A program made the position numbers and the translations under genes. DNA of 64,000 nt from an uncultured Spirochaetales bacterium (GTDB lineage: Bacteria; Spirochaetota; Spirochaetia; Sphaerochaetales; Sphaerochaetaceae): the NCBI GenBank assembly GCA_944390025.1, contig CALXOK010000001.1:62001-126000 (forward strand), given 5' to 3'. A model generated the notes under the pieces. That model was not told where the DNA came from, did no database searches, and saw only the letters and a program-made list of their open reading frames with translations. Positions 23,308 to 29,023 of this stretch are shown here, one piece after another (within the stretch, counting starts at the first letter, position 1; the number at the start of each line of letters is the position of its first letter).

Positions 23308-23626
23308 GAAGCTTACCGCATTTATCATTATAATCAGCATTGTGCTGACTCCGCTTTTCAGCGAGGCAGAGCTTTCTTATGAGCCTTACGGAGAGGATGA
23401 GTTTCCAATCTGGACGATGAAGCTCAGGAGGGCGGAAAGTCTTTTCTTCGGCTCCCTTGTGCTCACGTTCCCCATTGCGATGCTCACCTGGAACATTCTT
23501 GAGCATCAGGACATCGTTCATGCAAGCCAGCCGATACAGGCTTTCGGATGGCAGATGCTCATTGCCGGCTCTCTTTCCCTTACAATCGCGACAGCAGACT
23601 GGATAATAGGCGAGGTGAGTGAGTGA
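23300..23626 (+). CDS. Small exported or membrane protein of unknown function
   Basis: 108 residues. An N-terminal hydrophobic segment with possible signal-peptide cleavage (PLFSEAELS) is followed by PYGEDEFPIWTMKLRRAES and two further hydrophobic stretches (about 48-70 and 83-103). The ATG overlaps the yggS stop by 8 bp, and the stop abuts the pseudouridine synthase start (TGATG), so it is an embedded operon member. The tight coupling is the main evidence that it is real. Family not recognised. Confidence 0.7.
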   Translation: MLKKLTAFIIIISIVLTPLFSEAELSYEPYGEDEFPIWTMKLRRAESLFFGSLVLTFPIAMLTWNILEHQDIVHASQPIQAFGWQMLIAGSLSLTIATADWIIGEVSE

Positions 23627-24561
23627 TGATCCAGAAAAAGGAAAAGAGCATCATCTGTGAAGAATCAGGCCGCGTAGACAAGGTCCTTTCCGCATTCATT
23701 CCTCGCTCAGTTTTTTCCCTTGAGGGAACGTCTATAACTGTAAACGGAAAGCCTGTCAAGAAAAGCTTTCAAGTCAGACCGAATGATGAAGTGACTGTCA
23801 CCTATACGCAGGAGACCTTTGAAGGACTTGAGGCAGAAGACATTCCGCTTGATGTCATCTATGAGGATGAGAGCATACTTGTGATTGACAAAAAGGCCGG
23901 TATGGTCGTGCATCCCGGTGCGGGCAACTGGAGCGGAACCCTTGTAAACGCTCTTATCCACCGTTACGGTCAGGATTTCTCGACTTCTCAGGAAGAAGAC
24001 GATGAAGATGAGACATCAGCTCTCAGGCCCGGTATCGTTCACCGGCTGGACAAGGATACTTCCGGTGTCATGATTGTCGCCAAGACAGCTCAGGCACACA
24101 GCAGTCTTGTATCCCAGTTCCAGAGCCACAGCAATGAGAAAGTCTATATTGCAGTTGTGAAGCGTCCGTTCATAAAAAAGAGAGGAACTGTTGATGCTAA
24201 TATCGTGAGGGCTGCTCAGGACAGGAAGAAGTTCACAGTCTCATCAGACCCCCGTAAAGGAAAGAGCGCAGTGACGCATTACACTGTCCTTCGTCAGAAT
24301 GCTGAGTACGCATTCATCCGGGTGAGGATTGAGACAGGACGCACCCATCAGATCCGCGTGCACATGAAGTCAATCGGACACCCTGTTCTCGGAGATCCGA
24401 TTTACAGCAGGCCTGAAGGCCGTTTTGAGTCTTCCGGACTCTGCCTGCACGCACTGAAGCTATCAATAGACCATCCGCTTACTGGTGAGAGGATGACTTT
24501 CTATGCAAGGATGCCTGAGCGTATCAGAAATGTCGTGAAGGATCTGATCATGACATCGTGA
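23626..24561 (+). CDS. RluA/RluD-family pseudouridine synthase
   Basis: Converts uridine to pseudouridine in rRNA. 311 residues. An N-terminal S4 RNA-binding domain (RVDKVLSAFIPRSVFSLEGTSITVNGKPVKKSF) is followed by the catalytic domain with PGIVHRLDKDTSGVMIVAKT; Asp142 is the catalytic residue. RIETGRTHQIRVHMKSIGHPVLGD closes the family pattern. RluD-like by architecture; the target site is not certain. ATG 23626 has GAGGTGA 7 nt upstream and is preferred over the GTG one codon earlier. Convergent 14-bp overlap with the MBL gene. Confidence 0.93.
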   Translation: MIQKKEKSIICEESGRVDKVLSAFIPRSVFSLEGTSITVNGKPVKKSFQVRPNDEVTVTYTQETFEGLEAEDIPLDVIYEDESILVIDKKAGMVVHPGAGNWSGTLVNALIHRYGQDFSTSQEEDDEDETSALRPGIVHRLDKDTSGVMIVAKTAQAHSSLVSQFQSHSNEKVYIAVVKRPFIKKRGTVDANIVRAAQDRKKFTVSSDPRKGKSAVTHYTVLRQNAEYAFIRVRIETGRTHQIRVHMKSIGHPVLGDPIYSRPEGRFESSGLCLHALKLSIDHPLTGERMTFYARMPERIRNVVKDLIMTS

Positions 24562-25132
24562 CTTCTGATTCCAGAAGGTCATGATTGAACATGCGCTCTA
24601 TCCTTATCTTTGTCGGGCAGCCGTGCGAAGGAAAGACAAGGTAGTTGTCATCGTATTCCATTATCTTCGAGATTATGTTGCGCACCAGCAGATGTCTCTG
24701 ACTCATCGATGATGTTGATGAGATTCTGCCAGCGGCAAGGGTGTCGCCTGTGAAAATCGCATTGCCGATGACATAGACAAGGCTGTCCGGACTGTGTCCC
24801 GCAACATGCAGGATGTCGATGCTGAATGAAGCTATTTCATGATTTCTTGTCTCTTTCAGCTGGATGCACTCATAACCCATGACAGACTTTCTGTATGCAT
24901 ATACAGGGCAGGGATATATCTTCTTGTATGTACCGATGCCCCTGACATGCTGCTCATGGTCATGAGTCACAAGAAGTCCCTTTATGTGATAGCGGTTTGT
25001 CTCGATTATGCTGATCAGGCCATTATCAAGGTCAGCCGGGTCTATGATGAGTGCATCACAGTCGTATTCGCCTGCGGTGACAAGGTAGGTGTTGACCTGT
25101 CCGCTGTCGCAGAAGTGGCAGTAAATCCTCAT
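24548..25132 (-). CDS. Metallo-beta-lactamase-fold hydrolase with altered zinc motif
   Basis: 194 residues, glyoxalase-II-like size and layout. LLVTHDHEQHVRG stands where the family has THxHxDH, so the Asp that binds the second metal is Gln. Other ligands are present: GHSPDSLVYVI (His), FTGDTLAAG (Asp) and FPSHG (His). It could be a single-metal enzyme or have drifted. The ATG overlaps the end of the pentapeptide gene by 4 bp, so the two are co-translated; substrate unknown. Confidence 0.85.
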   Translation of the reverse strand: MRIYCHFCDSGQVNTYLVTAGEYDCDALIIDPADLDNGLISIIETNRYHIKGLLVTHDHEQHVRGIGTYKKIYPCPVYAYRKSVMGYECIQLKETRNHEIASFSIDILHVAGHSPDSLVYVIGNAIFTGDTLAAGRISSTSSMSQRHLLVRNIISKIMEYDDNYLVFPSHGCPTKIRIERMFNHDLLESEVTMS

Positions 25133-25728
25133 AGCTCCTCCTTGTGGAAGAAAGCCTCTTCCGGATTAGAGTAGCGGAAGGATACGTCCCTGATTGCGCT
25201 TGCACGGAAGTTGACCCGCTTCAGGTTGCAGTCCTCGAAACTGGTCCTGATGATTCTCGACATGCTGAAATTTGAGAAATAAAGATCGGATCCGGAAAAG
25301 TCATTGTCTATGCTGTCAATTCCCATGAAGTTGCAGTTGACCATCGTGCTTCCGGTGAAAGCGCATTTCTGAATGTTCGAACCGGAGAAGACCGTATAGC
25401 GGGCATGAAGGTCATCAAAGGAGCAGTTGATGAATATGCACATGTCGAAAAAGCTTGTCGATACCCTGCTGGATGAGAAATTGCAGTTACGGAAAGTAGA
25501 GAACGAGAAGTTCGATGCCCTGATATGAGTGCCGGAGATGTCGAGATTCTCAAAGTCTCCACCGACAATCGTCACATCCTTGACGATTGTCCTTTCGCTG
25601 AGAATTTTTTTCAGATGCTCGAGAATCAGGGCCTTGTCCTTCTGGTCAGAATGGTGAAAGCAGGTGCTGAAAGGCTTTGACACATAAGTCCTGCATCCCG
25701 GATATGAGCATATTCTTGCATCAAACAT
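25129..25728 (-). CDS. Pentapeptide-repeat protein with N-terminal Cys/His motif
   Basis: 199 residues. From about residue 50 to 190 the sequence runs in five-residue steps with central Phe or Leu (FENLDISGTHIRASNFSFSTFRNCNFSSS...), the pattern of a right-handed quadrilateral beta-helix. The first 26 residues hold C7-x4-C12-x10-C23-x-H25-H26, a plausible zinc knuckle. Such proteins may mimic DNA and bind gyrase or act as scaffolds; no function is claimed. Paired with the MBL hydrolase by 4-bp overlap, and divergent from rsgA with a shared -35 region. Confidence 0.85.
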   Translation of the reverse strand: MFDARICSYPGCRTYVSKPFSTCFHHSDQKDKALILEHLKKILSERTIVKDVTIVGGDFENLDISGTHIRASNFSFSTFRNCNFSSSRVSTSFFDMCIFINCSFDDLHARYTVFSGSNIQKCAFTGSTMVNCNFMGIDSIDNDFSGSDLYFSNFSMSRIIRTSFEDCNLKRVNFRASAIRDVSFRYSNPEEAFFHKEEL

Positions 25729-25734
25729 GATTAA

Positions 25735-25763
25735 AGAATCCCATCAGGCCGGACCTTTGTCAA
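25735..25763 (-). promoter_or_regulatory. Promoter of the pentapeptide/MBL operon, leaderless-type spacing
   Basis: Perfect TTGACA on the minus strand (25758-25763), 17-bp spacer, GATTCT (25735-25740), 6 nt to the ATG at 25728. Its -35 coincides, one base shifted, with the -35 of rsgA. Confidence 0.5.
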
Positions 25764-25769
25764 CAAAGG
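25754..25769. repeat. Inverted repeat over the shared -35 of two divergent promoters
   Basis: CCTTTGTCAACAAAGG: 7-bp perfect arms (CCTTTGT/ACAAAGG) around CA. Both the rsgA and the pentapeptide -35 hexamers lie within it. It could be an operator or only the by-product of back-to-back -35 elements. Confidence 0.5.
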
Positions 25770-25785
25770 CCTCTTGTGCTAGACT
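25757..25785 (+). promoter_or_regulatory. rsgA promoter, leaderless-type spacing
   Basis: TTGTCA (25757-25762), 17-bp spacer ending TGTGC, TAGACT (25780-25785), then 8 nt to the GTG at 25794. The only earlier in-frame start (GTG 25776) is upstream of the -10 and could not be on this transcript. Confidence 0.55.
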
Positions 25786-25793
25786 TTCTGGCT

Positions 25794-26738
25794 GTGACAG
25801 CAGAAATCAGAAGGGCGATAAACAATCTTTATGATGCCTGGTGTGAAAGCGAAGCCAGGTTGTATACCCTGAGAATCAAGGGCAAGGTGCTTAAGACTGA
25901 AGTCTATGAGTACAATCCTCTTGCAGTCGGCGATCTTGTTGAGTTCACTCCTTACAGCGAGACAGAGGGCCTGATTACAGCACGTCTTGAGAGGAAAAGC
26001 TCATTCATGCGCTGGAACGTGAAACTCGAAAAAAATCAGACCATTGCGGCCAATATCGATCAGGTCGCGATAATAACCTCTGCTTTCGAGCCTCCATTCA
26101 GACCCCGCTTCATTGACCGTGCAATCACCTGTGCCCGTGGTTGTGATGTGATTATCATCATGAATAAATGTGACTATCTCCTTACAGAGGAAGAAGCCGA
26201 GCGATGGGCTCTTTACAGGCGTCTTGGTTATGAGACCCTTGCTGTCAGCGCCCTTACCGGAGAGGGAATTGATGATTTCAGACGTCTGCTGGCCGGAAAG
26301 CTGACAGCTTTCGCAGGACAGAGCGGTGTCGGAAAGAGCACTCTTGTGAATCTTATAATCGACCCTGAGAAAAAGCAGACAACCAATGAGATAAGCAGCA
26401 AATACCATCGAGGAAGGCATACGACCAATCATGCCCTGTATCTGGAAAGGGATGACATCAGGATAATAGACACTCCGGGTGTAAGGGAGCTACTGGTTCC
26501 GTATGAGGAGAAAAGGGAGCTTGCAGAAAGCTTTGTCGAGTTCAGCAGGTTCTCCCCTGAGTGCGCATATCAGGATGACTGCACGCATTCAGGAGAGCCT
26601 GAGTGTGCTGTCATAAAGGCAGTTGAGGAAGGTCAGATTGATTCTGACCGCTATATGAGCTATCTCGGGCTGCTGGAAAGCCTTGTCTCCCGTAAGCCTG
26701 CTTATCTCAGAACCCGTTTCAGGAAGAACAAGCAATGA
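25794..26738 (+). CDS. rsgA: Ribosome small-subunit-dependent GTPase RsgA
   Basis: Circularly permuted GTPase that checks 30S maturation. 314 residues. OB-fold N-terminus (YTLRIKGKVLKTEVYEYNPLAVGDLVEF), then G4 MNKCD, G1 FAGQSGVGKSTLVN, G3 IDTPGVREL and the C-terminal zinc knuckle FSPECAYQDDCTHSGEPECAV. I set the start at GTG 25794 because it matches the family N-terminus and lies just downstream of the -10. Its stop overlaps the mutS2 ATG (ATGA). Confidence 0.94.
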   Translation: MTAEIRRAINNLYDAWCESEARLYTLRIKGKVLKTEVYEYNPLAVGDLVEFTPYSETEGLITARLERKSSFMRWNVKLEKNQTIAANIDQVAIITSAFEPPFRPRFIDRAITCARGCDVIIIMNKCDYLLTEEEAERWALYRRLGYETLAVSALTGEGIDDFRRLLAGKLTAFAGQSGVGKSTLVNLIIDPEKKQTTNEISSKYHRGRHTTNHALYLERDDIRIIDTPGVRELLVPYEEKRELAESFVEFSRFSPECAYQDDCTHSGEPECAVIKAVEEGQIDSDRYMSYLGLLESLVSRKPAYLRTRFRKNKQ

Positions 26739-29023
26739 CAGAGCGATGTGCAAGGGATCTTGAACTGGACAAGGTGCTTTCCATGGTGAAAGCCTTCAGC
26801 CTTTCTGATAACGGAAAGAAAGCAATCAGCGGTGGGCTTTTCACTTCTGATATTGAGACAATAAACAGGAGAGCAGAGCGAATTGAAAGCATCATTGAGC
26901 GCCTTGTCAGAGACGAGGTTCATCTTTCGTCATTTGTCTCAATCCAGCCGCTTTTTGATGATTACGAGGCAGGTGTACCTGATTTCGACGGACAGGATAT
27001 ATACAGCCTGTCAGACTATGTCTCATCCCTGAAGACTCTTGCCCGTTTCGAGATGGATGAAAACCTCTGTGACCAGCCACTTTCAGATCTCGGAGCTGAA
27101 ATCGGCACAGCACTCAATCCGGATGGAAGCGTCAAGGAGACACACCCTCTCTTAAGACCGCTTTTCATGGCGCTTGATAACGAGAGAAGCAACCGTCACA
27201 GCTATACAGTCTCATTAATGGGAGAAAAGAGTGCTCTCTTTCAGTCTCATGAGGCTGTTTTCAGGAATCATCGTGTGGTGCTTCCTGTTAAAAGGGAAAA
27301 GAGAAGTGAGCTTGCCGGGTATGTCCAGGGATCTTCTGCAAGCGGAGGGACGCTTTTCATTGAGCCATTTGAGCTTGTGGAACTGAATAACAGGGTAAGT
27401 CTTGCTGAAGACGAGATAGTGAAGATGAAGAGGAAAATCCTTTCCGATTTCTCAATGCGCATCAGAAGGATCATTCCTCAGCTGAGACAGTCAGTTGATT
27501 ATGTGACAGACTTCGACATTCACTATTCCTTTGCCTGCTTCATAAGAAAGACTAAAAGCTCAAGGACAGTTTTTTCTTCCTCAATTGACATAAAGGATGC
27601 GCGTCACCCTCTGCTTGGAGAATCTGCAGTGCCGGTCTCTCTTCATGTTGATGAGAATGTAAGGGTGGTTGTGCTTTCCGGTGCGAATGCCGGCGGAAAG
27701 ACTGTTACAATGAAGACTGTCGCTCTTTTCGTCATTCTCAGCCAGATATGCGGCTTTGCTCCTTTCAGTGAAGGTTCTTCACTCATTCTATTCAACAATG
27801 TCTTCACTGATATCGGGGACGGCCAGTCAATCACAGAAAACTATTCGACCTTCTCGTCTCATATGGCGAATATCGCTTCGATATGCAGGCAGTCTGATGA
27901 GAGGTCTCTTGTGCTTCTTGATGAGATTGGAAGCGGTACAGACCCCAGTGAAGGTGCAGCCCTCACAGACAGCCTGCTTGACTATTTCAAGAAAAAGGGA
28001 AGCCTTCTTTTCATCACAAGCCATTATGCCCAGGTCAAGATGCATGCATACAGCGACAGCGGGATGATGAATGCCTCTATGGAATTCGATGAGTCAACTG
28101 ACATGCCTACCTTCCGTGTCATCCAGGGACTTCCAGGGGAAAGCCATGCGATTTCCACTGCAAGAAAGATGGGCTTGCCTGCAGAAGTGATAAAAAACGC
28201 CCGCTCGAATATTGACTCATCTTCTTCTGTCAGCCAGCTCATCGCATCACTGAACGGAAAGTCCCGTTCTCTTGACAGGAAAATCACCGAGCTTGCCCTT
28301 GAGAAAAAGCATTATGAGAAGCTCTCTGCCTGCCTTGAAGAAGAGCGCGACCGGCTTGAGAAGGAAATCCTCCGTTACAGGAAAACGGAAGGCACCGAGC
28401 TTGACAGGTGGCTTAAGGATGCCAGAAAGAGACTGGAAAAACTGGTCATGGATGTGAGCACCGGGCACCTAACTAAGGAAAAGACCCGCGCCGTCAAGGA
28501 ATTCATCAAGGAAGCGGAAACGAAGAAGAAGGAAAATGACAGGTCGGTATCTGTCATTGAGGAAAAGCGCCGCTCTGCAGTCAGGTGCGGCTACAGGCCG
28601 GGTGATGAGGTTCTTTGCGGAACATTCTCAAGACGCGGTGTGATTCTCTCAGACCTTGGAAAGGGCAGGTACCAGGTGTCAATCGATGCAATGAGAATAA
28701 CGCTGAATGCCGAAGACCTGATGCCGGCTCCTTCAGAGAAAAAGGCGGCAGTCTCCTCCTTCCAGGGCGCAGCAAAGCGCCCTGAGCTGACACTTGATTT
28801 GAGAGGAAAGACGCTGGAGGAGGCAGTGAAGGCTGTGGATGATGAAATCGAGGCCTGTCTTCTTCATTCCCTGTCTTCTTTCTCAATCATCCACGGCTAC
28901 GGCAATGGAGTGCTGTCACAGGGACTTCATGCCCACCTTAAAACGGTTGCCGCAGTGAAGGATTATTATTTCGCTAATCCGGATGATGGTGGAATGGGAA
29001 AGACCTATGTCCTTCTCGGCTGA
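26735..29023 (+). CDS. mutS2: Endonuclease MutS2
   Basis: MutS paralogue that resolves branched DNA or acts on stalled ribosomes, depending on the organism. 762 residues. MutS core with Walker A LSGANAGGKTVTMKT and Walker B RSLVLLDEIGSGTDPSEGAAL, then a long coiled-coil, a KOW-like segment (YRPGDEVLCGTFSRRGVIL) and the C-terminal Smr nuclease domain (LTLDLRGKTLEEAVKAVD..IIHGYGNGVLSQGLHAHL). It lacks the mismatch-recognition domain of MutS. Coupled to rsgA by 4-bp overlap. An RsgA-MutS2 pairing would fit a joint ribosome-quality role (inference). Confidence 0.95.
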   Translation: MTERCARDLELDKVLSMVKAFSLSDNGKKAISGGLFTSDIETINRRAERIESIIERLVRDEVHLSSFVSIQPLFDDYEAGVPDFDGQDIYSLSDYVSSLKTLARFEMDENLCDQPLSDLGAEIGTALNPDGSVKETHPLLRPLFMALDNERSNRHSYTVSLMGEKSALFQSHEAVFRNHRVVLPVKREKRSELAGYVQGSSASGGTLFIEPFELVELNNRVSLAEDEIVKMKRKILSDFSMRIRRIIPQLRQSVDYVTDFDIHYSFACFIRKTKSSRTVFSSSIDIKDARHPLLGESAVPVSLHVDENVRVVVLSGANAGGKTVTMKTVALFVILSQICGFAPFSEGSSLILFNNVFTDIGDGQSITENYSTFSSHMANIASICRQSDERSLVLLDEIGSGTDPSEGAALTDSLLDYFKKKGSLLFITSHYAQVKMHAYSDSGMMNASMEFDESTDMPTFRVIQGLPGESHAISTARKMGLPAEVIKNARSNIDSSSSVSQLIASLNGKSRSLDRKITELALEKKHYEKLSACLEEERDRLEKEILRYRKTEGTELDRWLKDARKRLEKLVMDVSTGHLTKEKTRAVKEFIKEAETKKKENDRSVSVIEEKRRSAVRCGYRPGDEVLCGTFSRRGVILSDLGKGRYQVSIDAMRITLNAEDLMPAPSEKKAAVSSFQGAAKRPELTLDLRGKTLEEAVKAVDDEIEACLLHSLSSFSIIHGYGNGVLSQGLHAHLKTVAAVKDYYFANPDDGGMGKTYVLLG

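Follow-up and report, generated by a model that had tools for sequence, protein, structure and literature searches.

Bidirectional promoters in bacteria have been described as an outcome of −10 symmetry. In the Warman/Grainger promoters (PMC12825309; PMC10268837), two orientations of one short pseudo-symmetrical core element, a common −10, are bound exclusively, and the start sites usually lie 18 bp apart (also 10 or 23 bp). Five such E. coli promoters were too weakly active at basal level to show competition, and it emerged only under strong activation of one direction (Warman et al. 2026, PMC12825309). In pLS20, the divergent sigma-A promoters Pc and Pr overlap within one polymerase footprint; the favoured model has one promoter's −10 sitting on the other's −35 and involves DNA looping and a dedicated regulator, Rco (PMC4207663). 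Zheng et al. (2011, PMC3160421) reported "TA-led" genes, which lack a leader and carry TAnnnT about 12 bp before the start, from 6 of the 18 spirochaete genomes, with an average of 3.9% of genes.

The spirochaete locus analysed here resembles each of these systems in part. As in the Warman/Grainger promoters, a short pseudo-symmetrical element would be bound in one of two orientations at a time, but the common element is a −35 rather than a −10, and the predicted start sites lie back to back about 64 bp apart rather than at 10, 18 or 23 bp. As in pLS20, divergent promoters overlap within one footprint, but at this locus the two −35s coincide, and no site for a regulator was found. Compared with TA-led genes, both divergent members are predicted to be leaderless and to have a −35 in common. 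The features in the window (the whole 64,000-nucleotide stretch of DNA that was analysed, in whose positions coordinates are given) are as follows.

24548–25132, minus strand: metallo-beta-lactamase-fold (MBL) hydrolase gene (PF00753), overlapping the pentapeptide gene by four bases
25129–25728, minus strand: pentapeptide-repeat protein gene, ATG at 25728, predicted leaderless, with invariant C7, C12, C23 and H26
25735–25740, minus strand: predicted −10 box of the pentapeptide promoter, GATTCT, 17-bp spacer, weak, TG before the box, position conserved
25754–25769: inverted repeat CCTTTGT-CA-ACAAAGG, probably a chance feature, with arms that relatives do not keep
25757–25763, both strands: TTGTCAA, putative shared −35 heptamer, called from sequence and kept in relatives (TTGTCA on plus, TTGACA on minus)
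25780–25785, plus strand: predicted −10 box of the rsgA promoter, TAGACT, 17-bp spacer, extended by TGC
25794–26738, plus strand: rsgA, GTG start (probably leaderless), ribosome small-subunit GTPase of 314 aa (TIGR00157, PF03193)
26735–29023, plus strand: mutS2 (TIGR01069), 3′ of rsgA with a four-base overlap

On the plus strand, a 17-bp spacer separates TTGTCA (25757–25762) from TAGACT (25780–25785), and the rsgA GTG at 25794 comes 8 nt later; on the minus strand, TTGACA (25763–25758) has GATTCT (25740–25735) 17 bp further on and the pentapeptide ATG at 25728 after another 6 nt. The two hexamers overlap by five bases (offset −1) within the inverted repeat, and about 40 bp separates the −10 boxes (25740 to 25780). 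Both strands thus carry sigma70-type pairs, hexamers near TTGACA and TATAAT 16–18 bp apart, each scoring 9/12. TTGACA is a perfect −35 and TTGTCA matches the consensus at 5/6 positions; the rsgA −10 is extended (TGCTAGACT), and GATTCT, at 3/6 and preceded by TG, is weak in this species. A second in-frame GTG of rsgA lies upstream at 25776, inside the promoter, and RsgA proteins of relatives align from codon 1–2 of the 25794 start. Re-reading the sequence bore out the coordinates and geometry that the first-pass annotation gave for 25728–25796, and profile matches agreed with its naming of RsgA, MutS2, pentapeptide repeats and a metallo-beta-lactamase fold. The 16-bp inverted repeat it described is present, not as a perfect 16-mer palindrome but as two 7-base arms around CA.

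The genes concerned form a widespread block. The pentapeptide protein was present in 102 of the 112 Spirochaetia genera sampled, with C7, C12, C23 and H26 (C-x4-C-x10-C-x2-H) invariant at the N terminus, ahead of the repeats, an arrangement resembling a zinc site. Among about 80 spirochaete species compared, the rluD / MBL-pentapeptide / rsgA-mutS2 block (window 23623–29023) was found in 65/80, and the MBL gene lay directly behind the pentapeptide gene in 79/80. The pentapeptide gene is truncated in one congener (L015, genome G003), and two others (L014, L016) have no full homologue. The pentapeptide coding region in the window also contains an inverted repeat with perfect 11-base arms around a 6-base loop (25564–25591).

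Comparison of the intergenic region in relatives, the test set in advance, upheld the heptamer and the −10 boxes; the palindrome was lost. The named congener of the window's genome is Candidatus Aphodenecus (family Sphaerochaetaceae). Most congeners retain the divergent gene order, with 60–70 bp between the genes and TTGTCAA or TGTCAA plus −10 boxes, without the palindrome arms. TTGTCAA in the same register (offset −1) with both −10 boxes recurred in five Sphaerochaetaceae genera (g1, g3, g5, g18, g22) and, outside that family, in f3, f4 and f17 (two genera each) and L128; on the rsgA side these groups read TTGTCA-17/18-TAnnnT. In f2 and f25 a different divergent partner replaces rsgA and uses the same heptamer. 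When one sequence per genus was aligned (14 rows), the −10 columns on both sides were nearly invariant and the spacers variable; as rows were picked for TTGTCAA, the information content of the heptamer there reflects selection, and only the −10 columns are independent evidence. This cross-genus and cross-family comparison backs the shared −35, the 17-bp spacers and the leaderless-type starts originally proposed for the locus. Separately, in family f24 (L216, L217, L220, L221, L225) the pentapeptide gene has a different divergent partner, one beginning MCWKC, whose −10 box lies directly before the ATG, so that the two promoters overlap even more.

We also compared the base preceding TGTCAA, among loci with this motif at the expected place, according to whether rsgA was adjacent. 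It was T in 48/58 loci with rsgA and 10/25 without, so this T, which only rsgA needs, varies more freely where rsgA is not adjacent, in a comparison with small numbers that mixes related species; several of the ten T-bearing loci without rsgA have another divergent partner. Reduced by hand to one row per genus, the counts were 14/1 v 1/7 (P = 2.5 × 10−4, Fisher test), which is only indicative since genera were hand-assigned. The rsgA −35 reads TTGACT or TTGAAT in the two congeners without a full pentapeptide homologue (L014, L016); as these are alike upstream, the change may be a single event. Some congeners carry GTGTCAA or CTGTCAA, two of these with a 19-bp rsgA-side spacer (L065, L066; also L007); there, the extended −10 may be what rsgA depends on. 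Several species of genus g16 have the plus hexamer two bases off (TTGTGTCAA). Four genera (g2, g15, g17, g21), with intergenic regions of 78–87 bp or more, have separate, non-overlapping promoters, in which the pentapeptide gene has TTTACA as its −35 and rsgA has TTGCAC. Thus, sharing is not essential.

The distance from −10 box to start codon pointed to leaderless transcripts. TAnnnT stood 5–8 nt before the pentapeptide ATG in 57/70 genera, most often at exactly 6, compared with 6/70 at a control distance; hence the gene is probably leaderless throughout the class. A promoter scoring at least 9/12 lay upstream of it in 35/70 genera (2.0 in shuffles), and TTGACA lay 16–17 bp beyond the TAnnnT in many genera, this minus-strand TTGACA being the most constant part class-wide. 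Class-wide its box starts 12 bp ahead of the ATG, the spacing of TA-led genes; here it reads GATTCT rather than TAnnnT. The TAGACT of rsgA begins 14 bp upstream of its start; rsgA is probably leaderless here and in many relatives, and in some Sphaerochaeta it has a leader with a Shine-Dalgarno-like GGGAG. In 449 kb sampled from the window's own genome, TAnnnT peaked at 6 nt (24 genes) and 7 nt (19 genes) ahead of the first ATG, over a baseline of about 5, and a full promoter stood at the leaderless distance in 29/319 genes v 0/320 internal controls. About 9% of genes in this sample look leaderless, with TAnnnT 6–7 nt before the start codon. Counts summed by hand across 37 genomes gave 163 occurrences of the pattern TTGTCAA-N15-17-TAnnnT-N4-9-ATG and 41 of its reversed control. 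A start-site map for Sphaerochaeta or this group was not found in the literature, where our coverage of subscription journals was poor.

The same genome holds a second such pair, an FGE-sulfatase-type (sulfatase-modifying-factor-like) gene and lepB, which diverge across 67 bp with TTGTCAA in mid-gap.

L238 10020–10240 (G000:C1, about 136,020–136,240): lepB pair region, starts at L238 10087 (minus strand) and 10155 (plus strand)

The heptamer was present in all 15 species examined within the genus, this one included. Across genera, TTGTCAA was found in 16/16, the minus-side −10 box in 16 and the plus-side −10 box in 14; nearly every side had a TAnnnT-type box at 17 bp, and in both directions the ATG mostly lay 28–31 nt from the heptamer. 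Protein homology, not the heptamer, decided which loci entered this set. The lepB pair is the cleanest evidence for a putative shared −35 as a conserved architecture.

Consensus matching by itself gave no support. A simple promoter scan returned 18 promoter-like sites in 16 kb v 15.7 expected from shuffles, so plain scanning was discarded as uninformative. A genome-wide scan for overlapping divergent promoters with loose −10 criteria gave 13 matches v 7–9 in Markov sequence, and weak matches are therefore mostly noise; only the rsgA/pentapeptide and lepB pairs had TTGTCAA and, on each side, an open frame at leaderless distance. The signal above chance is the conservation of TTGTCAA and both predicted −10 boxes in relatives, not the consensus score.

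From the sequence, its geometry and its conservation we infer that both promoters are used, and we think it likely that the locus is a compact bidirectional sigma70 promoter, in which back-to-back core promoters with one common −35, TTGTCAA, would drive both operons as leaderless mRNAs. TTGACAA on one strand is TTGTCAA on the other, and its first six bases there match the −35 consensus at 5/6. The perfect −35 of the pentapeptide/MBL operon, with a T before it on the other strand, would therefore supply TTGTCA to rsgA-mutS2, and one heptamer with a TAnnnT box 16–18 bp off each side could serve both operons. With only 6–8 nt between the end of each −10 box and a start codon, transcription of both should start at that codon or beside it, and both mRNAs would be translated without leaders. 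Sigma region 4 would dock on the heptamer in either orientation, one at a time, so that the two genes would depend on a single binding site. A strong −35 with an A after it would also be a ready-made −35 for any gene about 30 bp away in the opposite direction, which would account for the capture of varied partners (rsgA, the f2 and f25 genes, lepB) without invoking a regulator. The promoter is probably constitutive, and its predicted output is low, concurrent expression, with competition only if one side is very active. The broader proposition, that the −35 is latently symmetrical and that spirochaetes repeatedly build back-to-back promoters of about 65 bp, leaderless on both sides and preserved over family-level divergence, seems to us evenly balanced.

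It was further suggested at first that a repressor dimer could silence both operons by binding the repeat, and the clean 7+7 arms centred on both −35 sites make CCTTTGT-CA-ACAAAGG look like such an operator; the lepB pair, too, carries TTGTCAACAAA, kept in most congeners. Beyond the genus, the lepB site no longer has its ACAAA extension. At the rsgA locus, congeners with the same gene order keep TTGTCAA or TGTCAA and lose the arms, of which only 1–5 of 7 pairs remain in the 13 other congener sequences; the palindrome is thus not kept where gene order is kept, an outcome that the first-pass annotation had set out as a refutation. Nor does the genome hold the further copies of a regulon: the exact 16-mer occurs once, and near copies (at most two mismatches) were rarer than for the reversed control (12 v 18 per strand). 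Repeats of this size are also expected by chance, since those with arms of at least 7 and loops of 0–8 numbered 69 in the 64-kb window v 48 ± 8 in Markov sequence, or about 0.07 per 65 bp. With conservation, copy number and chance expectation all against it, we rejected the palindrome as an operator, and control of both operons by a dimeric repressor there is very improbable. As such repeats are common by chance, the exact copy is unique and near copies fall below the control, the repeat needs no explanation and is probably a chance feature of one species.

Two other readings keep the −35 and differ over its use. Only the pentapeptide promoter might really use the heptamer, with rsgA transcribed via its extended −10 or from another promoter and the TTGTCA register partly incidental. 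This would suit the 5/6 match of TTGTCA, the extension of the rsgA −10, the GTGTCAA with a 19-bp spacer in two congeners and the greater constancy of the minus-strand TTGACA across the class, yet the leading T and the 17–18 bp plus spacer recur across families, with different partners in f2 and f25, and the lepB pair has the same heptamer in 16/16 genera; we consider it unlikely. Alternatively, the common −35 could be a true either/or switch between ribosome maintenance (rsgA-mutS2) and the pentapeptide/MBL operon, in line with the mutually exclusive expression claimed for them in the first-pass annotation. From the −35 overlap a single bound polymerase is indeed physically expected, since both orientations should not be occupied simultaneously; polymerase competition can repress a divergent gene under strong one-sided activation (PMC12825309), and the whole block is syntenic in 65/80 species. 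Mutually exclusive expression is nevertheless too strong a claim, because in E. coli competition arose only at high activity and was negligible at basal levels at the five bidirectional promoters tested (PMC12825309); moreover, no activator or operator sequence was identified, and the promoters are separated in several genera (g2, g15, g17, g21). A switch is, in our judgement, slightly less likely still than one-sided use. With the compact bidirectional promoter that we favour, low concurrent expression is expected rather than mutual exclusion, given the basal behaviour of the E. coli promoters.

If true, this arrangement would parallel, for the −35, the bidirectional promoters known to share a −10, and a conserved −35-sharing class would extend the idea beyond −10 symmetry. 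Such a class would give a natural set of promoters of about 65 bp for tests of polymerase competition and would show how two leaderless genes pack back to back. In these spirochaetes, a ribosome-assembly GTPase would be tied to a spirochaete-wide pentapeptide protein via one predicted binding site.
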